Assembly (NCBI RefSeq): GCF_900112765.1 | Contig: NZ_FOMZ01000001.1 | Span: forward strand, 62,001-126,000 | Source: Actinopolyspora alba | GTDB lineage: Bacteria; Actinomycetota; Actinomycetes; Mycobacteriales; Pseudonocardiaceae | Direction: 5' to 3' | DNA length: 64,000 bases | In this document: piece by piece, positions 13,901 through 63,781 of the stretch | How positions within the stretch are numbered: position 1 is the first letter of the stretch | How the letters are laid out: each line of letters starts with the position of its first letter | Translations under genes and position numbers: made by a program | The notes under the pieces: generated by a model | The model's input: the letters and a program-made list of their open reading frames with translations, nothing else | Told to the model about the DNA's origin: nothing | The model's database searches: none

Positions 13901-14155
13901 CGATTTCTCGCGAAATCGCCGGGCCGCTGGGGCTGTGCGGCCTCAAGGGGCGTCAATTTCTCGCGAAATCGCCGGGCGGTGGGACGGCACGGGGCCGCAC
14001 TCCCACCACTCCCGCGAGCCGCACTCCCACCACGCACACAGCCCAAGCACCCGCGGGTTCTCCCGTGCGGCTCTCGCGAGGACGGCCCCGACGTTGTGTA
14101 GTACCTACCCGATGTCGGGGCACCCGCGGCGAGAGCCGTGCGAGAGGTTCCGCCA
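13901..14155 (+). repeat. composite structured repeat, copy 1
   Basis: Two 18-bp interrupted palindromes at 13901-13918 and 13954-13971 are followed by about two 24-bp C-rich units (roughly 13994-14044) and a long nested hairpin (14053-14155). Hairpin parts: outer arm CGGCTCTCGC at 14068-14077 with GCGAGAGCCG at 14129-14138; inner arm GCCCCGAC at 14085-14092 with GTCGGGGC at 14114-14121; apical GTAG-TAC-CTAC at 14098-14108. The element fills the gap between the kinase-like gene and the 3' end of moeZ. Orientation is the same as the four other copies. Confidence 0.85.
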
Positions 14156-14161
14156 CGGAAG

Positions 14162-14183
14162 CACCCCGGCAAGCCGTACCGCG
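14162..14183 (+). repeat. 22-bp repeat next to the moeZ stop
   Basis: A 22-bp stretch beginning CACCCCGGCAAGCC is repeated identically at 27193-27214. In both places it ends 4-6 bases before the stop codon of the minus-strand gene on its right. It links copy 1 of the composite element with the second hairpin family. Confidence 0.7.
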
Positions 14184-14189
14184 TGCTCC

Positions 14190-15392
14190 TTAATACGTCG
14201 GGAGGCTCTGGTCGACCTGATTGGCCCACCCGAGCACCCCGCCGCCGACATGCACGGCGTCGGAGAAGCCCGCCTTGTGCAGCGCCGACAGCGCCTCGGC
14301 CGAACGTCCACCGGACTTGCAGTGCAACACGATCTGGCGATCCTGCGGCAGCTCGGCCAGTGCCTCACCGGAGAGGATCCGGTCCTTCGGGATCAGCTTG
14401 GACCCCTCGATGTGCACGATGTCGTACTCGTGCGGCTCCCGGACGTCGATCAACTCGAACTTCTGCTCGGAGTCGAACTTGTCCTTGAGCTCCTGGGGCG
14501 TGATCGTGCTGTCCGCGGCAGCCTGCTGCGCGTCGTCGGAAACCACTCCGCAGAAGGTCTCGTAGTCGATCAGCTCGGTGACCTTGTCCGCGTTCGGGTC
14601 CTTGCGGATCTTGACCGTGCGGTAGCTCATCTCCAGCGCGTCGTAGATCATCAACCTGCCGAGCAGGGTCTCACCGATACCGGTGATGAGCTTGATGGCC
14701 TCGTTGACCATGATCGAGCCGATGGAGGCGCACAGCACGCCCAGCACACCGCCCTCGGCGCAGGAGGGCACCATCCCGGGCGGCGGCGGCTCGGGGTAGA
14801 GGTCACGGTAGTTCGGGCCGTAGGCCTCCCAGAACACGCTGGCCTGGCCCTCGAAGCGGAAGATCGAGCCCCAGACGTAGGGCTTGCCCTGCAGCACCGC
14901 CGCGTCGTTGACCAGGTAACGCGTCGCGAAGTTGTCGGTGCCGTCCAGGATCAGATCGTAGTCGTCGAAGATCTCGAGCGCGTTGTCGGAGGTCAGGTTG
15001 GTCTGGTGCAGGTTGACCCGCACGAACGGGTTGACCTCGGCGATGGAGTCGCGCGCCGACTCGGCCTTGGAACGCCCGAGATCGGACTGGCCGTGGATGA
15101 TCTGGCGGTGCAGGTTCGACTCGTCGACCTCGTCGAACTCCACGACGCCCAGCGTGCCCACCCCGGCGGCGGCGAGATACAGCAGGGCGGGGCTGCCGAG
15201 ACCGCCCGCTCCGATAACCAGCACCTTGGCGTTCTTGAGCCGCTTCTGCCCCACCATCCCGACGTCCGGGATGATCAGATGACGACTGTAGCGCGCCACC
15301 TCGTCCTTCGTCAGTTCCGCGGCGGGCTCCACCAACGGCGGGAGCGTCGTCCCGCCGCCGTCGGAGCCCTGTGGGGATGTGTTGCCGGTCAT
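14190..15392 (-). CDS. moeZ: MoeZ: adenylyltransferase/sulfurtransferase fusion
   Basis: A 400-aa ThiF/MoeB-type E1 domain joined to a rhodanese domain. It adenylates the C-terminal Gly of ubiquitin-like sulfur carriers (MoaD, ThiS, CysO) and thiolates them for molybdopterin and cysteine pathways. Nucleotide site VLVIGAGGLGSPAL lies near residue 57, LDGTDNFATRYLVND near 150, and PSCAEGG near 200. The C-terminal rhodanese runs from ELIDVREPHEYDI to the active-site loop LHCKSGGRS, with its catalytic Cys present. The ATG at 15392 follows GGAGGAGC. Gene order with the kinase-like gene and DUF3152 follows Rv3205c-Rv3207c. Its 3' end faces composite repeat copy 1. Confidence 0.92.
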   Translation of the reverse strand: MTGNTSPQGSDGGGTTLPPLVEPAAELTKDEVARYSRHLIIPDVGMVGQKRLKNAKVLVIGAGGLGSPALLYLAAAGVGTLGVVEFDEVDESNLHRQIIHGQSDLGRSKAESARDSIAEVNPFVRVNLHQTNLTSDNALEIFDDYDLILDGTDNFATRYLVNDAAVLQGKPYVWGSIFRFEGQASVFWEAYGPNYRDLYPEPPPPGMVPSCAEGGVLGVLCASIGSIMVNEAIKLITGIGETLLGRLMIYDALEMSYRTVKIRKDPNADKVTELIDYETFCGVVSDDAQQAAADSTITPQELKDKFDSEQKFELIDVREPHEYDIVHIEGSKLIPKDRILSGEALAELPQDRQIVLHCKSGGRSAEALSALHKAGFSDAVHVGGGVLGWANQVDQSLPTY

Positions 15393-15693
15393 CTCCCAGC
15401 TCCTCCTCCGTTGCCTGGATGTACGGCGCTGTACGGCCGTGTCCGTTCGGCGGTTGTCTCGTCCCGGAAGCTCCCGGCCGGTACCAACCGCGCCACCGCT
15501 CCGTGTAACGCAAGCCTGGCCGATGGTCTTCCCACCCCCAAACCGTTCCCAGGTAATGGGACGCCACCGGGCGTCGGCGGGCGGTACCGGACCGACGGCT
15601 CGGCCCCGCCCCGGGATTCACGGCGGGATTCACGCACCTCGGTGAACCGGGGCCACCCACGACCGAGCTCTCGTCCGGGGTGGCAACGCGGAC
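15393..15693. other. intergenic region upstream of moeZ
   Basis: About 300 bases between the DUF3152 stop and the moeZ start, both genes on the minus strand. It must hold the moeZ promoter; only the GGAGGAGC ribosome binding site is clear. I see no small gene or repeat. Confidence 0.4.
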
Positions 15694-16674
15694 TCAATTC
15701 GAATTGTTCCCCAGCGGGAAGGGCCAAGCGTTCGGCTTGCACACGACCCCGTTGGCGGGAATCTCGGTACCCTGCGAGACCCGTTCGTTGAGCCGGTGCA
15801 GCACGTCGTTGGAGAGGCTGAAGGTCTGCTGCATCATCACCGGGGCGAGTTCGCCCTGCGCGCCGCAGGGGACGTGATCGTTGCCGAAGAAGTGACCGAC
15901 CTCGTGGTTGATGACGTAACGCCGGTAACTGCCGATGTCCCCGTCGAACGCGATCGCGCCCCGGACCCAGCGTGCGGCGCTGATGTAGGCCCGGCCCTGG
16001 ATGTGGCAGGAGGAGTCGTAGGGCAACCCGTTCCCGTAGCCACACACCTCGCGCGCGGTGTTCCGGCTGACCAGGGTCACGCGGAAATCGGGTTCGGGAC
16101 CGTCCGGTCCGACCCGCTGCACCGAGATGTCGCCACCACGAGGATTGATCCAGCCACGCGGATCGGACAGGGTCTGCTGCACCAGTCGCCCGAAGGAGTC
16201 GTTGCCCTCGGTGAGCCGGACTCCCTGCTCGATCTCGACGGCGTAGCGGTACAACTCGCCCGAACCGGCCGGACCGGTGCTGCCCGGCACGACCCGGAAC
16301 GTTCCACTTCCCTGTTTCGGCACCGGCGCTCCCGGTGGCAACTTCGCGGAGTGGATGTCGTCGGGATACTCCCGGCTCTTGTTCCCCTCGGTGACGACGG
16401 CGGCCTCGTCATCGGAGGAAGAGCTCCCCGCCGACTCCGCTCGCCGGTCCTGATCCGAATCGTCTCCGGGAACCCGCAGCACCGCGAAAACGGTCAGTAC
16501 CAGCAGTACGGGAATCGCGTAGACCCCCCAGCCGTAGCGCGACCATCCGCGACGAGCGCGGCGGCTGCCTCCCCTGCGACGGGACCCATCGCCCGCGGTG
16601 TCCCCTTCCGGCCGCGGTTGCCAGGACGCCGCCAGGGGGTCCCCCCTGTGCCGCCCACCTTTCCCGGATCTCAA
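15694..16674 (-). CDS. DUF3152 protein, membrane-anchored with metzincin-type zinc motif
   Basis: 326 aa: a basic Arg/Gly-rich cytoplasmic start, one membrane helix near residues 50-68, an acidic Ser-rich linker, then an extracellular DUF3152 domain. That domain contains NHEVGHFFGNDH, an HExGHxxGxxH pattern as in metzincin proteases, and paired Cys (CGYGNG...SSCHIQG, VPCGAQ, VVCKPN) that could form disulfides. A peptidase activity is plausible but I know of no proof for the family. The start is a TTG at 16674, unusual here, but AGGAG lies four bases upstream and no other start fits. The mycobacterial counterpart (Rv3207c) has the same neighbours. Confidence 0.8.
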   Translation of the reverse strand: MRSGKGGRHRGDPLAASWQPRPEGDTAGDGSRRRGGSRRARRGWSRYGWGVYAIPVLLVLTVFAVLRVPGDDSDQDRRAESAGSSSSDDEAAVVTEGNKSREYPDDIHSAKLPPGAPVPKQGSGTFRVVPGSTGPAGSGELYRYAVEIEQGVRLTEGNDSFGRLVQQTLSDPRGWINPRGGDISVQRVGPDGPEPDFRVTLVSRNTAREVCGYGNGLPYDSSCHIQGRAYISAARWVRGAIAFDGDIGSYRRYVINHEVGHFFGNDHVPCGAQGELAPVMMQQTFSLSNDVLHRLNERVSQGTEIPANGVVCKPNAWPFPLGNNSN

Positions 16675-17126
16675 TGAACTCCTAGTAGAACTTCGTTACC
16701 TCGTGCGTCGAGGTGATCACTCGGTGATCCCTTCGGCCCTCGCCGCGGGAGCGGGTGTCGAACAGCCACGATCACCCGTTCCGACGTGGCCGGACCACCA
16801 CCGGCGCCGGACTCGTACTTACCCCGTTCAGGTTGCCACACTATGCGAGTTGACCTGCGAAGCCGGGACATTCGGCGTGCCTCGGCGTGTTCCGGGGCCG
16901 GACAGTGACGAACCGGTGGCACGGCGACGCGGTTGCCGGACGAGGTTGCCCGCGGTGATTCACTACTCAACAGCGGGAACCGACGCTTCCCCTCGTGGAT
17001 TCGAGGGGCGGGTAGCACGGGTAAGCCGATCAGGTAACCGGCACAACCGCTCTACCGACAAGTAAAGTTGGGGAGCCCGACACGCACACGACCGCCGGGT
17101 CGACATTTTTCGGTGGAGGCTTTCAA
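16675..17126. other. divergent intergenic region, DUF3152 / TetR
   Basis: 452 bases carrying both promoters. A short inverted repeat, GATCAC-TCG-GTGATC, lies at 16715-16729 close to the DUF3152 start and could be an operator for the adjacent TetR. TAAAGT at about 17061-17066 is a possible minus-10 box for the TetR gene. No coding frame is convincing. Confidence 0.4.
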
Positions 17127-17762
17127 ATGACCGAGACCGCGCAGCAGAGCACCGATCAGCCCGCTCGGGGGGTGCGGCTTCCGCGCGACGCGCGGCGGGC
17201 CCAGCTGCTCTCCGCGGCTCAGGAAGTGTTCGTCAACAACGGCTACCACGCGGCGGCGATGGACGACATCGCCGAACGCGCGGGCGTGAGCAAACCGGTG
17301 TTGTACCAGCACTTCCCCGGCAAGCTGGAGCTCTACCTCGCGCTGCTGGAGACCCACGGCGCCGAGCTGGTCAACCGGGTCAGGGAAGCCATCGAGTCCA
17401 ACTCCGAGAACAAGCAGCGGGTGCGCGCCTCGGTAGCGGCTCTCTACGAGTTCGTCGACCGGGACGATCAGGCTTTCAGACTGGTCTTCGAATCGGACCT
17501 GCGCGGTGAACCCGCGGTGGAACGGGCGGTCGAGAAGGCCTCCTCCGGGTGCATAGACGCGGTGGCCGAAGCAGTCACCGCAGACGCGGGACTGGACAAC
17601 GAACGGGCGCGGCTGCTGGCCGTCGGGCTGGTGGGCCTCAGCCAGGTGACGGCCCGCGACTGGCTGGACTCGAACAGCTCCATCTCCAGGGAAGAGGCCG
17701 TGCACCTGATGTCCACCCTGGCGTGGAAGGGGCTGGCGGGTTTCCCGCTGCAACAGGGTTGA
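17127..17762 (+). CDS. TetR-family transcriptional regulator (Rv3208-like)
   Basis: 211 aa. The N-terminal helix-turn-helix reads RRAQLLSAAQEVFVNNGYHAAAMDDIAERAGVSK (residues about 24-57), followed by PVLYQHFPGKLELYLALL. The C-terminal ligand domain is all-helical. GGAGG sits eight bases before the ATG. Targets are not known; it is divergent from the DUF3152 gene, which is the simplest candidate. A convergent hairpin terminates it. Confidence 0.85.
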   Translation: MTETAQQSTDQPARGVRLPRDARRAQLLSAAQEVFVNNGYHAAAMDDIAERAGVSKPVLYQHFPGKLELYLALLETHGAELVNRVREAIESNSENKQRVRASVAALYEFVDRDDQAFRLVFESDLRGEPAVERAVEKASSGCIDAVAEAVTADAGLDNERARLLAVGLVGLSQVTARDWLDSNSSISREEAVHLMSTLAWKGLAGFPLQQG

Positions 17763-17783
17763 CCGAGCTACGCCGCCGGGATC

Positions 17784-17838
17784 GTGTGGTGGGGTACCGG
17801 GGCAGCGGAACAGCGCCCGGTGGTTCCCCACACACCAC
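17784..17838. terminator. nested hairpin between convergent genes
   Basis: Inner arms ACCGGG (17796-17801) and CCCGGT (17816-17821) pair, and outer arms GTGTGGTGGGG (17784-17794) and CCCCACACACCAC (17826-17838) pair with a small bulge. It lies between the TetR stop and the stop of the convergent hypothetical gene. Confidence 0.65.
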
Positions 17839-17846
17839 GGTCGTTG

Positions 17847-18206
17847 TCACCGACTGCGCTTCTTGCCTCCGACCGGCACCAACGGGGTGGACGCGCAACG
17901 ACAGTCCGCCTCGGGAACGGACACGGCGCTGATGGTGGGGCCGCGCAGCAGACCGGTGGTGATGGTCTCGCCCGAATGGGCGTATTTGACCCACTGGTCC
18001 CACTCGTCCTTGAACGCGACCTCGTCCTCGGACTTACCCATCGCGGCGCGCAGCGTGCTGGCCAACCACTGCGCCACCTCGTCCGGAGTGTGCAGGATTT
18101 CCACGGCGTCGAGCCGGGACAACCGCTCGTGGGCGGACATCGCCTGGTTCAACGGCGCGTCCTCGACGTAGCCGTGATGATGAGTGCCGCTGGTGTGCTG
18201 TCCCAC
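17847..18206 (-). CDS. hypothetical protein, 119 aa
   Basis: A short soluble protein with a His-rich start (GTHHHGY), an acidic helical middle (DEVAQWLASTLRAAMGKSEDEVAFKDEWDQWVKYA) and a tail containing DCRC and GGKKRSR. I do not recognise a family. The GTG at 18206 follows AAAGGACT; the frame upstream of it is arginine-rich and unlikely to be coding. It is on its own between the TetR gene and the alpha/beta hydrolase. Confidence 0.55.
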   Translation of the reverse strand: MGQHTSGTHHHGYVEDAPLNQAMSAHERLSRLDAVEILHTPDEVAQWLASTLRAAMGKSEDEVAFKDEWDQWVKYAHSGETITTGLLRGPTISAVSVPEADCRCASTPLVPVGGKKRSR

Positions 18207-18422
18207 GGAAGTCCTTTCAGCCGGTTGGTTCCGTCCGAACGGTGGGGCGCCCCGCTGCTCGAACCGAGCGACGGGTCGCCCCACCGACGGGTACCGCCGT
18301 TGGCCACCGTACCGAACGTCGGGCCGGAATCACCCGATCACGACCGCGGCGGGGCGGTGAACCGCCCGGCCTCCCGGTGCTCTCGGGCGGCGCGGGAAAC
18401 CGTGGGAACCGTCCGGTGCGGA

Positions 18423-20230: not shown

Positions 20231-20274
20231 GATCGCTGGTCACCTTTCGGAGGGAAACCCTGCGGACAATTGCG

Positions 20275-20306
20275 TGTTACGGCAAGTAACAGCTACCTTG
20301 GGTAGC
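20275..20306. promoter_or_regulatory. twin inverted repeats in the AurF / TetR divergent promoter
   Basis: TGTTAC-GGCAA-GTAACA (20275-20291) is followed directly by GCTACC-TTG-GGTAGC (20292-20306), which abuts the TetR start codon at 20307. TACCTT within the second repeat is a candidate minus-10 box seven bases from that start. The arrangement fits a TetR operator controlling both divergent genes; binding is inferred. Confidence 0.55.
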
Positions 20307-21038: not shown

Positions 21039-21248
21039 CCGAGATCTCCCGCGCACTCGACGAGTGCTCACCGAGCGGAAATCACCGGGCGGAACTCCAC
21101 GGGCGAAAGCTCCCACCGACAGCCGCCGTGGCGACCGCGGGATCGAGCGACCACCGCACGGTGGACGGCGCGAGCGTCATCGGAGGGCAACACGGGAACC
21201 GGACAGGTCCAGTCACCGGTTCCAGCCAAGGGAACGAAGGGCGATCAG

Positions 21249-21602: not shown

Positions 21603-21607
21603 ACGGC

Positions 21608-21641
21608 GCCGCTTCCCGACGGCGCCCCGCCGGGAAGCGGC
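21608..21641 (+). terminator. hairpin after the DUF4873 gene
   Basis: GCCGCTTCCCG (21608-21618) and CGGGAAGCGGC (21631-21641) are perfect 11-bp arms with a 12-base loop, starting six bases after the stop. Confidence 0.8.
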
Positions 21642-21687
21642 CCGGCCGGACGGCACGGCTCGTCGGGAAACCGGGAAAGCATTCGAG

Positions 21688-21723
21688 CACGCCGGTGCCT
21701 CGCGGACGCGACGCACCGGCGTG
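21688..21723 (-). terminator. hairpin after the DUF3107 gene
   Basis: CACGCCGGTGC (21688-21698) and GCACCGGCGTG (21713-21723) are perfect 11-bp arms around 14 bases, ending 28 bases from the DUF3107 stop on the minus strand. The pair with 21608-21641 insulates the convergent genes. Confidence 0.75.
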
Positions 21724-21750
21724 TCGACGTTCACACCGGCACTGGCCGGA

Positions 21751-26686: not shown

Positions 26687-26718
26687 CGCCGTGCTCTTCG
26701 GCGCGGCGACGCCGCCGT

Positions 26719-27018
26719 CAATTTCTCGCGAAATCGCGGGCCGATGGGCAGGTGCGGCCCCGGCCGGCGTCAATTTCTCGCGAAATCGCCGCGCCGCTGT
26801 GACGCGGAGCCGAACCCCCACCACCCCCGCAGGGCGAGCTACCACCACTCCCGCAGGGCGAACTCCAGCCACTCACGCAAACCGCACTCCTACCACCCTG
26901 GCAACCGGCACCGCCGCGGGTTCTCCCGTGCGGCTCTCGCGAGGACGCCGGAGACGTTGTGTAGTACCTCCCCGATGTCGCCGGACCCGCAGCGAGAGCC
27001 GTGCGAGAGGTTCCGCCA
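26719..27018 (+). repeat. composite structured repeat, copy 2
   Basis: Palindromes at 26719-26736 and 26771-26788, four 24-bp units at 26810-26905, then the long hairpin 26914-27018. Outer arms are CGGCTCTCGC 26931-26940 and GCGAGAGCCG 26992-27001. The inner stem differs from copy 1: CCGGAGAC pairs with GTCGCCGG, one mismatch, so most changes are compensatory. The apical GTAG is kept. The copy lies between the convergent propeller and small-membrane-protein genes. Confidence 0.85.
26810..26905 (+). repeat. four tandem 24-bp units inside composite copy 2
   Basis: Units at 26810-26833, 26834-26857, 26858-26881 and 26882-26905 follow the pattern CCGAACTCCCACCACTCCCG plus four bases, with 60-85 percent identity by eye. 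Copies 1, 4 and 5 of the composite element have about two units and copy 3 about one, so this is a variable-number module. There are no spacers, so it is not a CRISPR array. Confidence 0.8.
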
Positions 27019-27066
27019 AGCGACCAGTTACGTGAACCAAGCCGCAGACCCCCATCATGCCGCGTA

Positions 27067-27200
27067 AGCAGCGCGGGTGTCCCCGGTGCGTGAGTCGGAT
27101 GCATCGCGAGGCCGGGCCGCTCGCCGCGTAGGTCGCTACTCAAGAGCCGGCCCAACGAAGCAAGGCGCCGACTCACGTGCCGGTTACGCAACCACCCCGG
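27067..27200 (+). repeat. second hairpin family, copy A
   Basis: Stem CGTGAGTCGG (27089-27098) with CCGACTCACG (27168-27177); inner GGGCCG-CTC with GAGCCGGCCC; apical loop region GCGTAGGTCGCTAC. The near-identical copy is at 53742-53875. The apical sequence is the same as in composite copy 3, although the stems are unrelated. It sits between composite copy 2 and the stop of the minus-strand gene at 27219. Confidence 0.85.
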
Positions 27201-27218: not shown

Positions 27219-27656
27219 CTAGAGCCACCACCAGTAGGTGAGGGTTCCGAGCACTACCAGCATGGCCGCGAGGGAGCACCACAAGGCCACCGGCCGCCTC
27301 CCCCTGTCGGCCGCGAGCTGCAGCAGCAACGCGGCGACGGAGGCCAGGCCGTGCCCCAACAGCATCCGCCATCCGGGGCCGACCCCTCCCAGAGCACTCC
27401 CCCAGAGCTGCACCCCGACGAGAGTGACCGCGAGCACCAGCAGCCCGGCGGTCAGCGCTCCCGTCAAACCGCGGAACGCCCTGCCGACAGCTCCTGGTCG
27501 GCGGGCTCCGTCGACGATGTGGAAGGCGTCCGTCGCTCGGTCCGCGTTCTCCCGGTGGTGTCCGGCGGCGATTCGCGGGCGTGTGGTCACTTCGTCGGCA
27601 CCTCGGTCAGCGGATGCCCGCATCGCCCCGTCCTCGTCGGCTCCGGTCGGTCGCAC
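27219..27656 (-). CDS. small integral membrane protein, unknown
   Basis: 145 aa. The first half is polar and Arg/Asp-rich; the second half has three or four hydrophobic helices (about residues 62-82, 88-112 and 122-142), ending TYWWWL. I do not recognise a family. The GTG at 27656 lies one base after the stop of the RecB-like gene with GGAG six bases upstream, so translation is coupled and the two share an operon. An internal in-frame GTG would give a shorter form. Confidence 0.65.
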   Translation of the reverse strand: MRPTGADEDGAMRASADRGADEVTTRPRIAAGHHRENADRATDAFHIVDGARRPGAVGRAFRGLTGALTAGLLVLAVTLVGVQLWGSALGGVGPGWRMLLGHGLASVAALLLQLAADRGRRPVALWCSLAAMLVVLGTLTYWWWL

Positions 27657-27659
27657 GAT

Positions 27660-53303: not shown

Positions 53304-53409
53304 CCTGCTTCACCGGCGGGAACGAGAGCCACCCACACCGGATTAACGAATTCCCAACACTGGATTACACGCATCGAACGGAGGACGCGGCGCGCTCCGG
53401 TGGCGGCGT

Positions 53410-53662
53410 CGATTTCTCGCGAAATCGCCGCGCCGCTGGACGAGGCCGACGGTGGACATGGGGCGGTTCCCCGCGCGGAGGCCGTCAATTTCTCGCGAAA
53501 TCGCCGCGCCGCTACGACGCAGCGCCGAACTCCCACCACTTACGCAGTCGGCACCGCCGCGGGTTCTCCGGTGCGGCTCTCGCGAGGAAGGCCCGACGTG
53601 GCGTAGGTCGCTACCCGATGTCGGGCCTCCCCGCAGCGAGAGCCGTGCCAGAGGTTCCGCCA
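53410..53662 (+). repeat. composite structured repeat, copy 3
   Basis: Palindromes 53410-53427 and 53486-53503, about one 24-bp unit, and the hairpin 53557-53662 with outer arms CGGCTCTCGC 53574-53583 and GCGAGAGCCG 53636-53645. The inner stem is AGGCCCGAC with GTCGGGCCT, and the apical part GCGTAGGTCGCTAC. An extra palindrome lies at 53684-53701. The spacing between the two palindromes is 76 bases, longer than in copies 1 and 2. Confidence 0.85.
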
Positions 53663-53683
53663 CCCCACCTCGGGGCGGCGTCG

Positions 53684-53701
53684 ATTTCTCGCGAAATCTC
53701 C
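53684..53701. repeat. extra palindrome copy downstream of composite copy 3
   Basis: CGATTTC-TCGC-GAAATCT: one arm base is changed. Flanking CGGGG/CCCCG extends the pairing. It separates composite copy 3 from the second hairpin family copy B. Confidence 0.7.
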
Positions 53702-53741
53702 ACCCCGAAGACCGCCGTGGGGACGCGACCATACGGCGTGA

Positions 53742-53875
53742 GCAGCGTACGTGTCCCTGGTGCGTGAGTCGGATGCATTGCCAGGCCGGGCCGCTCGCCG
53801 CGTAGGTCGCTACTCAAGAGCCGGCCCAACACTCCCAAGGCGCCGACTCACGTGCCGGTTACCCAGCCACGTAAC
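53742..53875 (+). repeat. second hairpin family, copy B
   Basis: Near-identical to 27067-27200. Outer stem CGTGAGTCGG 53763-53772 and CCGACTCACG 53843-53852, and the same apical GCGTAGGTCGCTAC. It ends about 15 bases from the stop of the citE-like gene on the minus strand. Confidence 0.85.
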
Positions 53876-53889: not shown

Positions 53890-54849
53890 TCAATTCTCCG
53901 GAGGTTGCCAGGGATCTTCCCTGGGGAGCCCGGCGGCACGCCCCTTGGCCGCCACCACGAGCGCCATCTTGCGGGAAGCCTCGTCGATCATCTCGTCACC
54001 CAGCATGGCGGCACCACGCCTGCCACCGGCTTCCGAGGTGTACCAGGCATAGGCGTCGAGGATGTTCTCCGCCCGCTCGTAGTCCCGCTGCCGCGGCGAG
54101 AACACCTCGTTGACGGGCTCGACCTGGCCGGGGTGCAGCACCCACTTGCCGTCCAGACCGAGCGCGGCGGAACGACCGGCCACCCGGCGAAGTCCCTCGA
54201 GGTCCTTGATCTGCAGGTACGGCCCGTCGATGGCCTGCAGACCGTTGGCGCGGGCCGCGGTGAGCAACCGCATCAGCACGTGATGGTAGGCGTCGCCCAC
54301 GTCGTATCCGGGAGGCTGCTCACCGACCACGAGCGAGGGCATGTTGATGGAGGCCATGAAATCGGCCGGGCCGAACACCAGTGCGCGCAGCCGGCCCGAG
54401 GCGGCGGCTATCGAGTCGACCGAGGTCAGCCCCTTGGCGTCCTCGATCTGCGCCTCGATACCGATCGTCCCCACGGCGAGCCCCAGTGCCCGTTCGATCT
54501 GGGTGATCGTGAGGTCGAGCCAACTCACCTGCTCGGGACCGGTGACCTTGGGGAGCATGACGGTGTCCAGCGACCGGCCCGCCCCCTCCACCACGTCCAC
54601 CACGTCGCGGTAGGCCCACTGGCTTTCCGGATCGTTGATCCGGACGGTGCGGATCCGGTCTCCCCAGCCTCCCTCGTTCAGCGCGGCGACGACGTTCTCG
54701 CGTGCCTGGGCCTTGGCCAACGGGGCAACCGCGTCCTCCAGATCGAGGAAGAACTGGTCCGACCCCAGCCCCCTGGCCTTGTCGATCATCTTCGGGCTGG
54801 AGCCGGGCACCGCGAGACAGCTGCGGCGGGAACGTTGCGGATCGGCCAC
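53890..54849 (-). CDS. HpcH/HpaI-fold CoA-ester lyase (CitE-like)
   Basis: 319 aa. TIM-barrel C-C lyase of the citrate lyase beta / L-malyl-CoA lyase group: SRRSCLAVPGSSPKMIDKA, FFLDLEDAVAP (metal Asp/Glu pair), RINDPES, VMLPKVTGPEQ, IEAQIEDAKGL, ALVFGPADFMAS, and GKWVLHPGQ. The order of acids fits Mg2+-dependent cleavage of 3-hydroxyacyl-CoA esters such as malyl-CoA or citramalyl-CoA. GGAGT is eight bases before the GTG at 54849. No partner alpha or gamma subunits are present, so it is a stand-alone CitE-like enzyme. Confidence 0.88.
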   Translation of the reverse strand: MADPQRSRRSCLAVPGSSPKMIDKARGLGSDQFFLDLEDAVAPLAKAQARENVVAALNEGGWGDRIRTVRINDPESQWAYRDVVDVVEGAGRSLDTVMLPKVTGPEQVSWLDLTITQIERALGLAVGTIGIEAQIEDAKGLTSVDSIAAASGRLRALVFGPADFMASINMPSLVVGEQPPGYDVGDAYHHVLMRLLTAARANGLQAIDGPYLQIKDLEGLRRVAGRSAALGLDGKWVLHPGQVEPVNEVFSPRQRDYERAENILDAYAWYTSEAGGRRGAAMLGDEMIDEASRKMALVVAAKGRAAGLPREDPWQPPEN

Positions 54850-55096
54850 GTCGGGCACTCCTTCGCGCGGGAACACTGCTGTCCGATCCTCCGCCCGCCG
54901 GGCTCACCGGACGGAAGCGGCCCGGTCTCACCATGTGGACAGGCGGAGACATCGAGTGGTCACGTCGGCGATTCCGGGCGAGGTGTCACCACGAACCGCC
55001 GCGAACCGGGTTTTGTCTACCACGAGGCGACCGGCATGCGGTCCTCGCCGCGTTTCGCCGCTGCTCAGCCCGGTCGGAACAACTAGCCTGATCGGC

Positions 55097-56936: not shown

Positions 56937-57032
56937 ACGGAACGATTGCCGGTCGGGCTGTGAATCCTCGGGTACTCGTCCGTAACATGAGTGTCGGCAC
57001 ACCAGCTCAGGAAAGGTCGGTGTCGCGTAACC

Positions 57033-58172
57033 GTGACCACTACGCAGCCCACTCCCACCGAGGACGCGGTGCGGCAGGCCCTCACCAAGGTGGAGGACCC
57101 GGAGATCCACAAGCCGATCACCGATCTCGGCATGGTCAAGGACGTGACCATCGGCTCCGAGGGTGACGTCAAGGTCGGCGTGTACCTGACGGTGCAGGGC
57201 TGTCCGATGCGGGAGACCATCACCCAGCGGGTCGACTCAGCCGTTTCCGAGGTCACCGGGGTCAGCTCCGTCGAGGTGGAACTCGACGTGATGAGTGACG
57301 AACAGCGCACCGAACTGCGCAAGCAGCTGCGCGGTGACTCCGAGGAACCCCGCATTCCCTTCGCCGAGCCGGGATCGCTCACCCGGGTTTACTGTGTCGC
57401 CTCCGGCAAGGGCGGCGTCGGCAAGTCCAGCGTGACCGTCAACCTCGCGGCCTCGATGGCCGAGCGCGGCCTGTCCGTCGGTGTCGTCGACGCCGACATC
57501 TACGGCCACTCGGTGCCACGAATGCTGGGGACCGAGAGCAAGCCCACCCAGGTCGAGAACATGATCATGCCGCCGCAGGCGCACGGGGTCAAGCTGATCT
57601 CGATCGGCATGTTCACCCCGGGAAACACGCCGGTGGTCTGGCGTGGCCCGATGCTGCACCGCGCGTTGCAGCAGTTCCTCTCGGACGTCTTCTGGGGGGA
57701 CCTGGACGTGCTGCTGCTGGACCTGCCACCGGGTACCGGCGACGTCGCGCTGTCCACCGCCCAGCTGATCCCGAACGCGGAGATCCTGGTGGTCACCACA
57801 CCGCAGCAGGCCGCGGCAGAGGTGGCCGAGCGTGCGGGCGCCATCGCGATGCAGACCCGACAGCGCATCGCCGGTGTCGTGGAGAACATGTCGTGGATGG
57901 AGCTGCCCGACGGTCAGCGCGTGGAGGTATTCGGCACCGGCGGCGGTCAGATCGTCTCGGACTCGCTGACGCGCTCCGTCGGTTCGGATGTCCCGCTGCT
58001 CGGACAGGTACCGCTGGACACCCGACTTCGCGAGGCCGGGGACAGCGGCTCCCCACTGGTGCTGGAGGATCCCGACTCGCCCGCGAGCCAGGTGCTGGCC
58101 GACGTCGCCAAGAAGTTGTCGACCAGGGCACGGGGACTGGCAGGGCAGTTGCTCTCCGTCTCCCCCGCATGA
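57033..58172 (+). CDS. mrp: Mrp/ApbC-type iron-sulfur carrier ATPase
   Basis: 379 aa. An N-terminal MIP18/DUF59-type domain (residues about 1-90, TDLGMVKDVTI, GCPMRETI) is followed by a P-loop domain with the deviant Walker A GKGGVGKSSV, DADIYGHSVPRM, LLLDLPPGTGD and NMSWMELPDG. The CxxC of E. coli Mrp that binds the bridging Fe-S cluster is absent here (GQRVEVFGTGG instead), as I recall for actinobacterial Mrp. Role in Fe-S cluster delivery is expected. Start GTG at 57033 has its AAAGG 14-18 bases away, so the start is less certain; GTG 56991 is in frame. Confidence 0.85.
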   Translation: MTTTQPTPTEDAVRQALTKVEDPEIHKPITDLGMVKDVTIGSEGDVKVGVYLTVQGCPMRETITQRVDSAVSEVTGVSSVEVELDVMSDEQRTELRKQLRGDSEEPRIPFAEPGSLTRVYCVASGKGGVGKSSVTVNLAASMAERGLSVGVVDADIYGHSVPRMLGTESKPTQVENMIMPPQAHGVKLISIGMFTPGNTPVVWRGPMLHRALQQFLSDVFWGDLDVLLLDLPPGTGDVALSTAQLIPNAEILVVTTPQQAAAEVAERAGAIAMQTRQRIAGVVENMSWMELPDGQRVEVFGTGGGQIVSDSLTRSVGSDVPLLGQVPLDTRLREAGDSGSPLVLEDPDSPASQVLADVAKKLSTRARGLAGQLLSVSPA

Positions 58173-58210
58173 GACAGCGGGAGTCCGACCGGTTTGCGTG
58201 GCTGGCTTCG

Positions 58211-58261
58211 TGGCGGAACCTCGCGTGCGGTGCCGACTCACGTGCCGGCTACGCAACCACC
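58211..58261. repeat. chimeric fragment of both hairpin families
   Basis: The first 20 bases (from TGGCGGAACC) are the reverse complement of the 3' flank of the long hairpin. They are followed at once by the 3' half of the second hairpin family (GTGCCGACTCACGTGCCGGC and on). It begins 39 bases after the mrp stop, in inverted orientation to composite copy 4. Confidence 0.7.
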
Positions 58262-58293
58262 TGTGCAACCGGCACCCGACCAATCCACCATCA

Positions 58294-58555
58294 GGGGTGT
58301 CGATTTCGCGAGAAATTGACACCCCGGCATGGCGGTGTGGCCCCGGCTCCGTCAATTTCTCGCGAAATCGCCGGGCGGTGGGACGAGGCGGTGCCGAACT
58401 CCCGCCACTCCCGCAGGCCGAACTCCCGCCGCCCTCGCAGTCGGCACCGCCGCGGGTTCTCGCGTGCGGTTCTCGCGAGGAAGGCCCGACGTGGCGTAGG
58501 TGGCTACTCGATGTCGGGCCTCGCCGGAGCGAGAGCCGTGCGCGAGGTTCCGCCA
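58294..58555 (+). repeat. composite structured repeat, copy 4
   Basis: First palindrome 58301-58318 is in the reverse orientation and extended to a hairpin at 58294-58325. The second is at 58353-58370. About two 24-bp units follow, then the hairpin 58450-58555 with arms CGGTTCTCGC 58467-58476 and GCGAGAGCCG 58529-58538. The C-to-T change in the arm keeps a G-U pair. Inner stem AGGCCCGAC/GTCGGGCCT; apical GTAG-GTGG-CTAC. It lies between mrp and the convergent methyltransferase-like gene. Confidence 0.85.
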
Positions 58556-58594
58556 CCCGCACCGCTGTGCGGACCGGGTGGAGCAAGGTCACGC

Positions 58595-59140
58595 TCAGGT
58601 GCGGGCGATGGCCAGCAGACCGCTGCCGATGGGCAGGGCGACCGGGACCAACCTGGGATCGGCGTGAATGGCGTTCAGGATGTCGCGGGGCATCTGCGGA
58701 CCGCCGTCGGGATCGAACACCCTGTCACCAGCGGCATGCCGAAACGCCCCGTTGAGAATCAACGTCGCACCGGGGCGCAGCAGCGGTGCGGCCAGTTCCA
58801 ACAGCTCCGCCATGGGCGAGTTCCCGACCACGACGTGCACCAGGTCGTAGGCGTCCTCGGCCAGCCTGGGCAGCACCTCCGCCCCCACACCGGTGATCAT
58901 CCGAAGCTTATTGCCCGACAGTCCGGCCTCGGCGACCGCCTCGCGGGTCGCCCGCTGCGCCTCGGTGTCGAGTGTGATACACGTCAGGGTGCCTTCCGGG
59001 ATCATTCCCTCGCACAGGGCGAGCGCCGTGGACGACGAACCGGCGACCTCCACCGCCGCCCTGGCGCGCAACGCCGATGCCAGGAAACGCAACATCGCCT
59101 CGGGCGACCCGAACCGTTCCTCCACGACCCCGTCGGTCAT
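58595..59140 (-). CDS. O-methyltransferase-like protein with lost motifs
   Basis: About 181 aa, aligned by eye with the class I O-methyltransferase that precedes sigE in actinobacteria (Rv1220c, about 215 aa). The scaffold is recognisable: AAVEVAGSSSTALALCEG, VLPRLAEDAYDLVHVVVGN, APLLRPGATLILNGAF, LVPVALPIGSGLLA. The SAM-binding G-x-G-x-G after VEV has become AGSSS. The metal-binding D-A-D-K has become VVGN and F-D-N has become L-N-G. The N-terminal 30-40 residues are also missing. It is probably not an active metal-dependent methyltransferase. Start ATG at 59140 with GGGGA upstream. Confidence 0.6.
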   Translation of the reverse strand: MTDGVVEERFGSPEAMLRFLASALRARAAVEVAGSSSTALALCEGMIPEGTLTCITLDTEAQRATREAVAEAGLSGNKLRMITGVGAEVLPRLAEDAYDLVHVVVGNSPMAELLELAAPLLRPGATLILNGAFRHAAGDRVFDPDGGPQMPRDILNAIHADPRLVPVALPIGSGLLAIART

Positions 59141-59541
59141 CGGCGGTTCCCCGACCAGCTCCACTGGGGCGCGAGCGGAGTTCCGGACGCGGCCGGGTAT
59201 ACCCCCGCCGCGGTCGCGGGGTGGCGGAGGGCCACTACCCATCGGCACGGGGGAGGAAATCTCGGGTTGCACAATTGCACAGGTTATCGTTGCGGGAGTG
59301 GCTACTCGCCGAGGTGGGGTACAACGATCGCGTAACCTCTGCCCACCGCCGGGTAACGCTCCGGGAGTCCACGTACGCACCGTTCCGGCAGCTCCCGCCG
59401 CACGAATTTCCGAATCCGACTCACAACAGAGCGAAACGAGTTCGGAAGAGATCGGTTACGCATGGAACCCGGCCGCGGCCCCGGAGGACCGGACCGTTCG
59501 CGGGAGACCCCGGTACTCACCGGGATGGCGGGCCGATGGGT

Positions 59542-59569
59542 GAGAACAAGTTCTCAGGAGCTTCTCAGG
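59542..59569 (+). promoter_or_regulatory. inverted and direct repeats upstream of sigE
   Basis: GAGAAC-AA-GTTCTC at 59542-59555 overlaps TTCTCAGG at 59551-59558; the same octamer recurs at 59562-59569, 11 bases on. Such 11-base-spaced direct repeats suit an OmpR-type response regulator dimer. In M. tuberculosis sigE is controlled by MprA through paired direct repeats; equating the two is inference. Confidence 0.5.
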
Positions 59570-59674
59570 CTCTTATCACGGTCACCTAATCCCCGGGAAG
59601 CACACTCGAAGGGTGACAGTCGGCAGGATTTGCGACGCATCGCCGCTACGTCCCCACGAAGAGCCGCGGTGCCG

Positions 59675-59700
59675 GGAACAAACCGGCCGAGGCGATCGTT
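59675..59700 (+). promoter_or_regulatory. ECF sigma-type promoter of sigE
   Basis: GGAAC (59675-59679), 17 bases, then CGTT (59697-59700). This matches the GGAAC / CGTT pattern used by the SigE/SigH group. A transcript would start about 59707 and carry a 35-nt leader before the ATG at 59742, which suggests autoregulation. Confidence 0.6.
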
Positions 59701-59741
59701 CTACCGGGCGCAACCGCCCGCAGGAGGTGCCTTCTCGCCAC

Positions 59742-60416
59742 ATGGCCACCCACACGGCAGCACCGAGCCCGATTCCACCGAACACCACGGGAACAGCACG
59801 TTCCGACAGCGGAACCACGGCCCCCCGGTCGGTGGATTCGGAAGAGCACGGCGAACAACACGTGGTTTCCCCCGAGGAGACCACCGCCAACTGGACACCC
59901 CCCTCGTGGGAGGAAGTGGTCCGGGAACACGCTGACCGCGTGTACCGGTTGGCGTTCCGGCTCTCCGGCAACAAGCACGACGCGGAGGATCTCACTCAGG
60001 AGACCTTCATCCGGGTGTTCCGGTCACTGGCGTCGTACCGCCCCGGCACCTTCGAGGGATGGCTGCACCGCATCACGACCAACCTCTTCCTGGACATGGC
60101 ACGCAGGCGCTCCAGACTGCGCATGGAGGGACTGCCGGAGGACACCGATCGCATTCCGGGACGCGGCCCGAGTCCGGAGCAGGTTTTCCAGGACACCCAT
60201 CTGGATCCGGACCTGCAGGCTGCCCTGGAGGAGCTCTCTCCGGAGTTCCGTGCGGCGATCGTGCTGTGTGACGTCGAAGGGCTCTCCTACGAGGAGATCG
60301 GTGCCACGCTGGGCGTCAAGCTGGGAACCGTACGTAGCCGCATCCACCGCGGGCGGCAGTTGCTGAAGTCGGCCCTGGAAGCTCGCCGTGAGCTCACTCG
60401 GGAGGAAACAGCATGA
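59742..60416 (+). CDS. sigE: ECF RNA polymerase sigma factor SigE
   Basis: 224 aa. A 60-residue Thr/Ser/Pro-rich start precedes region 2 ([30 protein letters not shown], then the DNA-melting part [14 protein letters not shown]). Region 4 follows ([28 protein letters not shown]). It directs envelope-stress genes. ATG 59742 lies 13 bases from AGGAGGT; a GTG at 59727 and a GTG at 59613 are in frame, and sigE of mycobacteria is known for more than one start. It overlaps its anti-sigma gene by ATGA. Confidence 0.92.
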
Positions 60417-61156
60417 CCGGTCTTCGAGGGTGGGGGCTGCCTGAGCAGCATCTGGCGCTGGACGCGCTCGTGGCTTTCGTGGACGGCGAGCTCAGCCCGG
60501 GGGCGCACGACCGCGCCGCCGCGCACCTGGCCACCTGCCCGAGTTGTGCCACGGAGGCGGACGCACAGCGGCAGGCACGTTCGGCCGTACGAACCGCGTC
60601 GACACCTTCGATCTCCCCGCAACTGCTGCAGTCGCTGCAGTCGATCCCCGCGACCGCCGAGCTACCCGAGCAGCCGGACAACCTGGCGCTGAGCGAGGAC
60701 GGACAGCTCGTCACGCTCAACCGGCGTCCGGGGAGCTCGAAATCCGCACCCTTAGGGACGAGCACCCCGTTGGGAAAAGGTTCCGGCCGATTCGGATCCG
60801 TCTCCGAGGGCGGCTCGCTCCCGACCGACACGGGGACGCAGCAATCGAGGCTCGGCGGACGTCGCGCCAAACAGAGTGCCGGTGTGGTGTTCTCCGGCCT
60901 CGTGCTGGGGGCGCTGGCATTCATGAACACCCCGGCGGACGGAGCACGTAACCCGGCGAACACGGTGCCCGATCCGATGCCGCAGGGCGGAGCTGTCGAG
61001 GAGGCGGGCAGCTCGGCCACGCCGAGCGAGGGCGCCCCGACCACCGCGGCGACGATTCCCACGGCCGAGTCGACGACAGCTCCGGCCACCAGTGTCTCCG
61101 TGCGGCCGGACTCGCTGGACAGGAGTTCCACTCCCGAGCCCGACCCGGCTTCGTAA
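60413..61156 (+). CDS. rseA: zinc-binding anti-sigma factor (RseA-like)
   Basis: 247 aa. An N-terminal anti-sigma domain contains the ZAS motif H-x3-C-x2-C ([11 protein letters not shown]) near residues 43-50. A long Ser/Gly-rich linker follows. One hydrophobic segment ([17 protein letters not shown], about residues 160-176) could cross the membrane, followed by an acidic Pro/Thr-rich outer tail. It should hold SigE inactive. Start overlaps the sigE stop by four bases. The pairing and order sigE-rseA-htrA-tatB is that of M. tuberculosis Rv1221-Rv1224. Confidence 0.88.
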
Positions 61157-61362
61157 CCGCCACACACCGAGTTCACGCGCGGAAGCCAACGAGGACTTCA
61201 CTCCCGCTCGGGCAACATGGCACGTGCGCCGAAGTGTCGAGCGCGGGAGACGGCCGGAGGATTCGCCGAGCGGCTATCCCACTCCGGTGAGCGCGATGTC
61301 TCCTTCGTGTGATGCACTCAGGGCAGCCGGCCGAACCGACACGTGCGTAAAACCGGGGAGCG

Positions 61363-62952
61363 ATGAGCGAGCAGCCGAGGACATCCGCGCATCAGGGGGA
61401 TCCGGGAGAGCATTCGGGCACGGATGGACCCGCTGCGAGCGTCGAGCACGATGAGCCGACGAAACACCCGGAGACAGCGCCGCGGTACTCCTCAGCCGGG
61501 AACGGCTCGGAAGAGCATCCGCCCGAGGCCGCCGTCTTCGGCAGGCCCGAGGGAGTTCGAGGCAGCTTCGACCACCGGGGGATCGACAGCACTCCCCGGG
61601 TGAATCACGCGCCACCGACCCCGGAATCACTGGCGCACGCGTTCGGTCGTCCGGCGGGCGCCTCGGAACCATTACAACGCGCACCGTGGGAAACGGGAGC
61701 ACGGCAGTCGGGCGAGGACGGCGCCGACGAACCGGTCTTCTGGAACGAGCAGGGCGAACGGGATCCCTGGCGCGATCCAACCTCCGGAGCGGTACTCGGT
61801 GGCCCCGCGCTGGAGGAGAACCGCTCGGAGTCGGGGACGACCCCCGGTGATGGGCCGCTGCTCAGTGCCCGCGAAGTGCTGTTCGGACGCAGGGTCCGTC
61901 CCCGTTCCCTGCTCACCCTTGGACTGGTGGTGTTGCTGCTCGGAGCGGCCGGGGGATTCGTGGGGCGTATCACCGCCGAGGAGGGCAATCCGCTCACCAA
62001 TCCGGACGTGACGCTGGCCAGTGTGGAGCCGGGCAACGACCGCCCCGCGGGTTCGGTTTCGGGAGTCGCCTCTCGCGTGGTGCCCGCTGTGGTCTCGGTC
62101 GAGGTGAGAATAGGTTCCGAGGGGGGTACCGGCTCGGGTGTCGTGATCGACGGCAACGGCTACGTCGTGACGAACAACCACGTGGTCTCGATGGCCGCGG
62201 AAACACCGAACGCGAAGATATTCACGGTTTTCTCGGACGGCACCAGGACATCGGCTCGAATCGTCGGACGCGATCCGCAGACCGACCTCGCGGTGCTCAA
62301 GGTGGAGGTCAGCAATCCGACCGTCGCGCGGTTGGGGTCCTCGGAGGATCTGCGCGTCGGGGACAGAGTACTGGCCATCGGTTCCCCGCTGGGGCTGGAC
62401 AACACCGTCACCAGCGGCATCGTCAGTTCGATTGACCGGCCGATGCGACTCGCCGGTGAGGGCACCGACACCAACGCCGTGATCGACGCCATTCAGACCG
62501 ACGCGGCCGTGAACCCGGGCAACTCGGGCGGAGCGTTGGTGTCGGGGAACGGAGCCGTGGTGGGCATCAACACGGCCATCAGGACGTTGGGCACGGGCGG
62601 CAGCAGCGGATCGATCGGTCTCGGGTTCGCGATACCGATCGACAAGGTCCGCCGGATAGCCCAACAGCTCATCCGCACCGGTGAGGTACGGCACGCCGAG
62701 CTCGGCGTGAACACCAAGTCGGTCACCGACGGCATCGCCGACGGTGCCCAGGTCCAGAACGTGCAGCAGGGCAGCGCCGCCGAGAAGGCCGGAATCGTCG
62801 AGGGCGACGTGATCACCAAGGTGGACGACCGTGAGATCACCGGGGCCGACGAGTTGCAGGTCGCGGTGGACGAGCACGACGTGGGTGCGGTCGTTCCGGT
62901 GACCGTGGTTCGCGATGGCAACGAACTCGTCCTGGACGTCACCCTCCAATAG
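61363..62952 (+). CDS. htrA: HtrA/DegP-type serine protease with PDZ domain
   Basis: 529 aa. A 170-residue disordered acidic cytoplasmic region is followed by a membrane helix near 183-200 (SLLTLGLVVLLLGAAGGF). Then comes an exported trypsin-like domain with His in VTNNHVVS, Asp in DPQTDLAVLKV and Ser in NPGNSGGALV. A C-terminal PDZ domain runs from ELGVNTKSV to VLDVTLQ. It would degrade or sense misfolded envelope proteins. GGGGAG precedes the ATG at 61363. It is 206 bases after rseA and shares its stress role. Confidence 0.93.
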   Translation: MSEQPRTSAHQGDPGEHSGTDGPAASVEHDEPTKHPETAPRYSSAGNGSEEHPPEAAVFGRPEGVRGSFDHRGIDSTPRVNHAPPTPESLAHAFGRPAGASEPLQRAPWETGARQSGEDGADEPVFWNEQGERDPWRDPTSGAVLGGPALEENRSESGTTPGDGPLLSAREVLFGRRVRPRSLLTLGLVVLLLGAAGGFVGRITAEEGNPLTNPDVTLASVEPGNDRPAGSVSGVASRVVPAVVSVEVRIGSEGGTGSGVVIDGNGYVVTNNHVVSMAAETPNAKIFTVFSDGTRTSARIVGRDPQTDLAVLKVEVSNPTVARLGSSEDLRVGDRVLAIGSPLGLDNTVTSGIVSSIDRPMRLAGEGTDTNAVIDAIQTDAAVNPGNSGGALVSGNGAVVGINTAIRTLGTGGSSGSIGLGFAIPIDKVRRIAQQLIRTGEVRHAELGVNTKSVTDGIADGAQVQNVQQGSAAEKAGIVEGDVITKVDDREITGADELQVAVDEHDVGAVVPVTVVRDGNELVLDVTLQ

Positions 62953-63042
62953 CGCGCCGAGTTTGGATAGGCTGAGTCCGGACAGCGGTTCCCGCTCACC
63001 CCACAGTGCGGGCACCGACGCGACGCCCCGGAAGGAGTCGAG

Positions 63043-63450
63043 GTGTTCGATAGCATCGGCTGGGGTGAGATCCTGGTTCTCATCGTCGCCGGTCTGTTCA
63101 TCCTCGGACCCGAACGGCTGCCTTCCGCGGCGGCCTGGCTGGGTAAGACGGTTCGTCAGGTCCGCGAGTACGCCACCGGAGCACGAGACCAGCTGCGTTC
63201 CGAGCTGGGACCGGAGTTCGACGATCTGCGCAAGCCGTTGGAGGATCTGCGCGGCATCCGCGATTTCGACCCCAAGCGGGCGGTGAGCAAGCACCTGTTC
63301 GACGACGAGAACCCGCTGGACGGGGTCACCAACGACCGGGGTTCGGGCACGAACGGGCACAAACCGAGATCGGACGCTCCCCCCTCGTTCCGTCGGGAAA
63401 AGCCGCTGGATCCGGGCGAACGCCCACCGTTCGACTCCGACGCCACCTGA
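63043..63450 (+). CDS. tatB: TatB, twin-arginine translocase subunit
   Basis: 135 aa. N-terminal [20 protein letters not shown] then GPERLP, the membrane helix and hinge of Tat[10 protein letters not shown] with Glu in the helix marks TatB. An amphipathic helix ([22 protein letters not shown]) and a charged tail follow. GGAAGGAG is five bases before the GTG at 63043. It is 90 bases downstream of htrA. TatA and TatC are not in the window. Confidence 0.93.
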
Positions 63451-63512
63451 CGGTCGGGACGGTCCCGCGCCCGGACAAGCACCGTGAGTAGCGCGGCGTC
63501 GATTCGCGGCGT

Positions 63513-63781
63513 CGATTTCTCGCGAAATCGCCGCGCGGTTGGGTGGCCCTCGGTGCGTGAGGTGGTGGGACTCCGGCTCCGTCGATTTCTCGCGAAATCG
63601 CCGCGCCGCTACGGCGCAAGTCGAACTCCCACCACTCCCGCAAGTCGAGTCCCGACCGCCCTCGCGATCGGCACCGCCGCGGGTTCTCCGGTGCGGCTCT
63701 CGCGAGGAAGGCCCGACGTCGCGTAGGTGCCTACCCGATGTCGGGCCTCCCGGAGCGAGAGCCGTGCGAGAGGTTCCGCCA
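63513..63781 (+). repeat. composite structured repeat, copy 5
   Basis: Palindromes 63513-63530 and 63583-63600, about two 24-bp units, hairpin 63677-63781 with arms CGGCTCTCGC 63694-63703 and GCGAGAGCCG 63755-63764. Inner stem AGGCCCGAC/GTCGGGCCT; apical GTAGG-TG-CCTAC, a perfect small stem. It lies between tatB and the convergent aminopeptidase gene, 31 bases from the latter's stop. Confidence 0.85.

Follow-up and report, generated by a model that had tools for sequence, protein, structure and literature searches.

What is the structured element that recurs five times between genes in a 64,000-nt stretch of the Actinopolyspora alba genome (hereafter the window)? The first-pass annotation, made from the sequence alone, described a composite of a palindrome, a spacer, a second palindrome, 24-bp units and a nested hairpin. 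It offered three candidates: a REP/MITE-like mobile family, a family of 3' RNA elements or a nucleoid-protein site. All five copies were present with their parts in that order (Table 1). The spacers separating the 14-nt palindrome cores were 38–62 nt long, and each copy had one to four 24-bp units when counted by eye. As described, all five hairpins lay on the + strand, and none overlapped a gene predicted by our home-made gene caller. Their minimum free energies (MFE) were −61.6 to −79.6 kcal/mol (z −5.6 to −7.6), and for each copy 0 of 200 shuffles were as stable as the native hairpin.

Table 1 Element parts, related hairpins and neighbouring genes in the window
Feature	Position	Strand	Remark
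Copy 1, two palindromes	13894-13925, 13947-13978	+	
Copy 1, type-1 hairpin	14051..14156	+	R1 117.2 bits; MFE −73
Copy 1, antisense ThiF/rhodanese gene	14190-15392	-	Pfam; stop 33 nt past hairpin end
Copy 2, two palindromes	26712..26795	+	
Copy 2, four 24-bp units	26811..26906	+	C-rich on + strand; two by repeat-family search, others by eye
Copy 2, type-1 hairpin	26914..27019	+	R1 105.3 bits
Copy 2, type-2 hairpin	27082..27181	+	37 nt from stop of antisense gene 27219-27656 (-)
Copy 3, two palindromes	53403..53510	+	
Copy 3, type-1 hairpin	53557..53663	+	R1 119.7 bits
Copy 3, type-2 hairpin	53756..53856	+	33 nt from stop of antisense HpcH/HpaI-family gene 53890-54876 (-)
Inverted element remnant	58173..58225	-	Flank kept, hairpin lost; 3' end of Mrp/NUBPL-type gene 57033-58172 (+)
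Copy 4, two palindromes	58294..58377	+	
Copy 4, two 24-bp units	58395..58442	+	One by repeat-family search, second by eye
Copy 4, type-1 hairpin	58450..58556	+	R1 113.7 bits; stop of antisense gene 58595-59164 (-) 38 nt beyond
Copy 5, two palindromes	63506..63607	+	
Copy 5, two 24-bp units	63622..63669	+	One by repeat-family search, second by eye
Copy 5, type-1 hairpin	63677..63782	+	R1 124.7 bits
Copy 5, 3' flank (D)	63783..63808	+	Conserved, ~26 nt; resembles 24-bp unit by eye
Copy 5, antisense M17 aminopeptidase gene	63813 onward	-	Stop 30 nt beyond hairpin

The composite did not hold up as a fixed unit; its palindromes and 24-bp units vary between copies. Among the 108 copies of the same genome whose surroundings were available (13 of 121 were left out), 30 had no palindrome of the tested form within 350 nt upstream of the hairpin, and 18 had no 24-bp unit at threshold. 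The numbers upstream ranged from 0 to 3 palindromes and from 0 to 4 units. What stayed constant was the hairpin, a flank of ~26 nt and the position. The earlier description lacked three features: the 3' flank, the antisense stop codon that follows it and another hairpin type related to the first. Palindromes of the ATTTC-N4-GAAAT type also occurred outside the paired positions, at 4078, 41373, 41776 and 53684 of the window, the last being a third palindrome of copy 3 (53675-53706).

The type-1 hairpin is ~106 nt long and nested, with conserved internal loops. From its 5' end, the element-sense strand reads the constant foot CCGCGGGTTCT, a variable stem of ~15–17 bp, the constant loop strand GCGAGGACAG, a variable inner stem and an apical helix that is GTAG-CTAC-like or GTAT-ATAC-like. 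On the 3' side of the apex are the constant box GATCCCG(G/C)AGC, whose first part differs in Actinopolyspora, the stem complement and the constant foot AGGTTCCGCCAC. Past this foot are flank D, about nine unconserved nt on average and the antisense stop codon.

The fold was analyzed with an alignment (A3) of 55 sequences from seven genera, comprising 43 of 68 other-genus copies chosen by eye and 12 others. In A3, 96.9% of cells were paired, 24 of 37 base pairs showed double changes, and single stem pairs were made of up to four Watson–Crick types. The covariation score was 0.486, compared with 0.132 for shuffled and 0.06–0.10 for slid alignments. Because the structure came from these 55 sequences, the slid comparison is inflated, and relatedness can lift a score above the shuffles even where there is no structure. 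Despite these caveats, such varied pair types are hard to obtain otherwise, and the fold, as judged from the alignment, is under selection across genera. Three species of genus g52 provided another view. The search found one copy in each, beyond the stop codon of gatB (named by NCBIfam for one species; the other two proteins are 94–96% identical) and only 12 nt from it, and the three hairpins differed in compensated ways. These copies count for the fold because homogenisation between copies is unlikely where the search found one copy.

A covariance model built from 42 copies (R1) was used to search whole genomes. In the source genome (G000, 5.24 Mb) it gave 125 matches at no fewer than 121 places, four matches repeating places already counted; the number is a lower bound, with 150 of 8159 candidates scored. 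An exact-pattern search of the same genome gave 66 hits and its reversed control gave 0. The annotation had staked its proposal on further copies being found, and they were. Its extrapolation to hundreds per genome is corrected to at least 121 places, so that the window is a rich stretch. Elsewhere R1 found ~140 places in genome G003, 121 matches in G022 and 33 in G021. With up to 64 candidates per genome scored, R1 matched 16 of 61 genomes: 10/10 Actinopolyspora and members of six other genera in the same GTDB family. A model built from A3 (R2), with up to 13 candidates per genome scored, was run on 298 genomes sampled from the order and matched 20, every one of them in that family. Absences in both surveys are weak at these sampling depths. 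Among 79 named loci, R2 hit six, from Saccharopolyspora, Amycolatopsis and Actinomycetospora, with 7 matches in all (E ≤ 0.1). In the NCBI taxonomy Saccharopolyspora belongs to Pseudonocardiaceae, and Actinopolyspora has its own family. Within Actinopolyspora, the 4.2-Mb genome G007 had 3 R1 matches, whereas each of the other nine genomes had at least 64.

The annotation had also asked whether the unit matches a catalogued RNA family. At the Rfam gathering score no family matched within the window, and the hits below threshold, led by microRNA models, look like chance. An Rfam search of 18 loci from other genomes returned only a tRNA and no match over the hairpin. An RNA motif has been named 'Saccharopolyspora-1'; our literature search found no paper naming it. 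No description of the hairpin was found in the literature searched, outside subscription papers. The dispersed ~106-nt hairpin of the Actinopolyspora/Saccharopolyspora group is a real and, as far as these searches reach, undescribed family with up to well over a hundred copies per genome.

Mapping the copies against gene ends, as the annotation had suggested, indicated that the hairpins sit at gene 3' ends, antisense to the gene. Among the own-genome copies, 91/108 faced the stop codon of an antisense gene and 17/108 faced a same-strand gene; some of these assignments will be wrong, as the gene caller missed the HpcH/HpaI gene beside copy 3. With that gene counted, all five copies of the window fit the placement. 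For 76 of these 91 the distance between hairpin and antisense stop was 25–48 nt; of the remaining 15, 9 had a type-2 hairpin in between, which ended 31–38 nt from the stop. The start codon was 48–58 nt away in 10 of the 17 same-strand cases. In other genera, 58 of 68 copies faced an antisense gene, 46 of them with the stop at 25–48 nt, and in genome G009 33/40 antisense-facing copies were 30–41 nt from it. Along 800 kb of G009, hairpins occupied 24/121 convergent, 19/452 tandem and 3/120 divergent gaps. No gene ran into the hairpin at 46 of 108 own copies. In a test for a link with expression, the coding score was 0.733 for genes with an element against 0.687, a difference short of significance (p = 0.09).

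Which strand folds can be read from the wobble pairs. In the variable outer stem, G.U outnumbered A.C by 52:13 on the element-sense strand, and the ratio was 58:18 when the inner stem was included, G.U being higher in 7 of 10 groups and equal in 3. Two more G.U pairs were nearly invariant (53/55 and 54/55). The element-sense fold was stabler than that of the opposite strand in 102/108 own and 61/68 other-genus copies, counts that come from related copies and give a consistent direction, not a statistic of independent trials. The excess of G.U over A.C suggests that folding probably takes place on the strand antisense to the neighbouring gene.

This bears on another role, in which the hairpin acts in the gene's own mRNA, ~35 nt past the stop codon, and ends transcription or blocks 3' exonucleases, as has been proposed for the REPs of E. 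coli. Such a gene-sense role accounts more easily for the tight distance to the stop codon, and in the examples inspected either strand folded strongly. On the gene-sense strand, however, the conserved G.U pairs turn into A.C, and the fold is the less stable one in most copies. A plain hairpin of this kind would also need neither one orientation nor the origin polarity described below for convergent pairs. We consider the gene-sense role improbable.

The hairpins were also oriented along the chromosome. They pointed toward the origin in 94/140 cases in G003 (140 of 142 rows; the two dropped rows repeat a place on the other strand) and 50/75 in G009. Among the matches listed, the counts were 23/25 in G021 (25 of 33) and 80/100 in G022 (100 of 121), so that the range across the four genomes was 67–92%. 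The origins of G003, G009 and G022 were placed by parB; that of G021 is set at coordinate 0 by convention. Hairpin density dropped toward the terminus in all four genomes (in G021 and G022, among the matches listed), and in G003 only 4/140 hairpins fell within roughly 1.48–3.23 Mb. Between convergent genes alone, 44/55 hairpins pointed toward the origin, made up of 13/14, 14/17 and 17/24 (p = 0.002, 0.013 and 0.064, respectively; G009 alone is not significant). The gene strand is balanced in such pairs, so the polarity seems not merely inherited from it, and this test makes a by-product of gene strand unlikely.

Origin polarity and a density falling to the terminus in four genomes would also suit a chromosome-organising DNA site, serving nucleoid occlusion, segregation or loading through a protein that reads the palindromes or the hairpin; they keep the annotation's nucleoid-protein site among the candidates. 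The palindrome core ATTTCTCGCGAAAT resembles the Noc site, and 800 kb of G009 held 89 intergenic palindromes of the ATTTC-N4-GAAAT type and none in called genes. Against this, each of seven genomes (7/7) encoded a single protein with a ParB_N match, and with no second match a Noc/ParB-like palindrome binder was set aside for these genomes. The palindromes are not constant parts of the element, and an organising site leaves the antisense stop spacing and the covariation unexplained. This reading appears very improbable.

The history of the sites was followed between genomes. Of 27 distinct G003 elements, 21 stood beside the same gene 3' end as in G000, a comparison that took in 78 of the 91 own antisense genes. 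In G014, which belongs to another genus, the site of copy 5 also holds the element, its stem rewritten. Sharing across genera was otherwise low (2/21, 3/21 and 1/5, counting homologues that are not all proven orthologues, and 0/8 in three more genera). Between G000 and the closer G009, 34 sites were comparable, about 13 of them read as sequence and the rest classed by alignment score. The hairpin had the same orientation at 25, was inverted at 2, partial at 1 and absent at 6, and two of these six held a type-2 hairpin. The annotation had proposed looking for empty sites; the hairpin-less G009 sites that were read all kept element remnants, and none was cleanly empty. The window has such a remnant itself (58173..58225), and at this site the hairpin is intact in G004. 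Since decayed and hairpin-less copies exist, some sites are dispensable.

Although sites were shared, orthologous hairpins of G003 and G000 were hardly closer to each other than non-orthologous ones (0.871 vs 0.834), and the ortholog ranked first in 3/21. Arm chimeras were found in 8/87 classifiable copies, including reciprocal I/III pairs. These results indicated that positions are inherited between species while hairpin sequences are homogenised. In two genera, genomes G259 (g52) and G310 (g27) have an element beside homologous genes (L429 and L440, 88% identical), which may be an old shared site or a gene transferred together with its element.

The main rival is a selfish repeat with targeted insertion, close to the REP/MITE-like mobile family of the annotation. 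A folded single strand (DNA or RNA) would serve a hypothetical recombinase or reverse transcriptase as substrate, and this enzyme would place new copies, all oriented alike, just behind stop codons; homologous recombination would homogenise them, and any benefit would be incidental. The 1 to 121 matches per genome, stem subfamilies that by eye differ between genomes, the decayed copies, the chimeras and the weak resemblance of orthologous hairpins all fit such a repeat, as do the two G009 sites with the hairpin inverted and the two with type 2 instead. Of what marks a MITE (terminal inverted repeats, target duplication and empty sites), the sites showed inverted pairs and hairpin-less places with remnants. 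The conservation of sites between species, mostly in the same orientation, does not suit it, and neither do the compensated differences at apparent single copies, the lack of a clean empty site among those read or the arc around the terminus, which is poor in copies, contrary to expectation for selfish DNA. A RAYT/TnpA-type gene, which the annotation had suggested seeking, is not needed. G022 has 121 hairpin matches and 0 Y1_Tnp genes, ruling out a RAYT mobiliser as a requirement; G000 has 1, with no listed hairpin match within 6 kb. We regard the selfish repeat as somewhat unlikely; it may also be how the element originated.

The second family, type 2, reads CCGGTGCGTGAGTCGG...CCGACTCACGTGCC and has two members in the window, both antisense beside stop codons (Table 1). 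In 800 kb of G009 there were 11, all (11/11) facing an antisense gene and 7 of them at 28–41 nt; type 2 stands in place of type 1 at two orthologous G000/G009 sites. Some odd copies were also seen in G000. In the hybrids C30:7551 and C30:217713, one of which is near parB, the right half has given way to a shared tail that contains a T-arm-like stretch, GGTTCGAACC. At C30:263191, the inner stem of a type-1 hairpin runs, by eye, the other way round; R1 matches here on either strand, with 94.1 and 81.8 bits, and the G009 site has no hairpin.

Among known systems, integron attC sites have the feet GTTRRRY and RYYYAAC and are used by the integron integrase. Like them, the element is an imperfect hairpin with conserved feet and a variable stem, adjoins a stop codon and has its folded strand antisense to the gene. 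A difference is that its feet do not read GTTRRRY/RYYYAAC by eye and that its neighbours at the compared sites are syntenic chromosomal genes. Mycobacterial MIRUs are actinobacterial repeats at gene ends, a likeness by description only; we know of no such long covarying hairpin among them.

REPs and BIMEs, of the GTAG and CGTC classes, are described in the text of PMC3733652 as dispersed, high-copy intergenic palindromes downstream of coding regions. According to that text they share with our element the location between convergent or unidirectional genes, G–T stem pairs and many close pairs in opposite orientation, but they are 20–40 bp long, whereas the hairpin has 106 nt with conserved internal loops and needs no RAYT. 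Its single orientation at narrow spacing from an antisense stop and its origin polarity also set it apart from REPs as described there. Like a REP, it is a dispersed intergenic palindrome with more than 100 copies (at least 121 places in G000, ~140 in G003 and 121 matches in G022); it lacks the GTAG/CGTC foot tag, with CCGCGGGTTCT and AGGTTCCGCCAC as feet and GTAG only near the apex in some copies. The element thus resembles REPs, as that source presents them, in being a dispersed gene-end palindrome with G–T pairs, but fails on RAYT and foot tag. Neither Saccharopolyspora nor Actinobacteria occurs in the main text of PMC3733652. The stem-loop repeats Ype and Efa are likewise structured, close to the 3' ends of coding sequences and thought to act as RNA, but come from families of Yersinia, Bordetella and Enterococcus; an orientation rule and replication polarity were not found in the sections of PMC1590033 used here.

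Rho-dependent terminators are defined, in the sections of PMC6407284 used here, by a 78-nt site with C>G, regular spacing and then a pause hairpin, and in Actinopolyspora a C-rich stretch likewise precedes the hairpin. A 78-nt window with C/G ≥ 1.5 was upstream of 81% of copies there, compared with 7% on the other strand and 19% of random intergenic sequence. Other genera lacked the stretch (C 0.364, G 0.337), and a stricter 11–13-nt spacing test (YC-dimer version) was passed by 22/108 own copies, 3/68 other-genus copies and 35/582 random stretches. Rho help is possible in Actinopolyspora; as a family trait this reading, promising there, was weakened by the other genera and the spacing test, and Rho involvement across genera is not supported. 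An intrinsic-terminator U tract was found on neither strand: T made up 0.064 of flank D in 76 own copies (element-sense), and U ~0.18 of the 50 nt after the hairpin on the other strand.

Among the annotation's three candidates, the evidence speaks most for the family of 3' RNA elements, through the covariation and the location at gene 3' ends, except that the element is antisense to the gene. We tentatively favour, at less than even confidence, a dispersed REP-like RNA element that acts as a polar barrier against head-on or antisense transcription, since this accounts at once for strand, orientation and polarity. In its active form the element would be a folded RNA with the element-sense sequence (the + strand of the window), standing ~35 nt outside the stop codon of the gene to which it is antisense. 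A transcript from the other side, from a convergent neighbour or an antisense start, would meet the hairpin before invading the gene, and the hairpin would stop or pause it or mark it for cleavage. As the hairpin mostly points to the origin, the transcripts met would run head-on to the replication fork. The selected fold, the placement, the polarity and the persistence of sites with homogenised sequences are observed, and the folded strand is well supported; transcription of that strand, barrier activity and benefit are inferred. In Streptomyces, convergent read-through RNAs are common according to PMC3765725, in the part of it used here. The ~35-nt spacing is the weak point of the barrier, as a gene-sense role in the 3' UTR would explain it no less well, and at the gatB copies the distance is 12 nt. 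The inconstant neighbour that would transcribe the strand (none runs into 46 of 108 own copies), the missing U tract and the dispensable sites also speak against a barrier.

A bolder version, which we think doubtful, is a chromosome-wide set of replication-oriented 'transcription guards'. These structured RNAs, antisense beside the stops of mostly co-directional genes, would be read by a dedicated hypothetical factor and maintained by selection for stopping head-on transcripts. Recombination would copy and homogenise them, and their expansion would have taken place independently in several genera. By analogy with attC sites, the folded strand may also be a recombination substrate.

If the polar barrier is real, a large family of covarying RNA elements would be added to actinobacteria related to antibiotic producers. 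Its narrow placement and polarity yield testable predictions, and it would offer an unusually clean natural system for a question that is hard to address elsewhere, namely whether scattered devices that sense direction protect genomes from antisense and head-on transcription.
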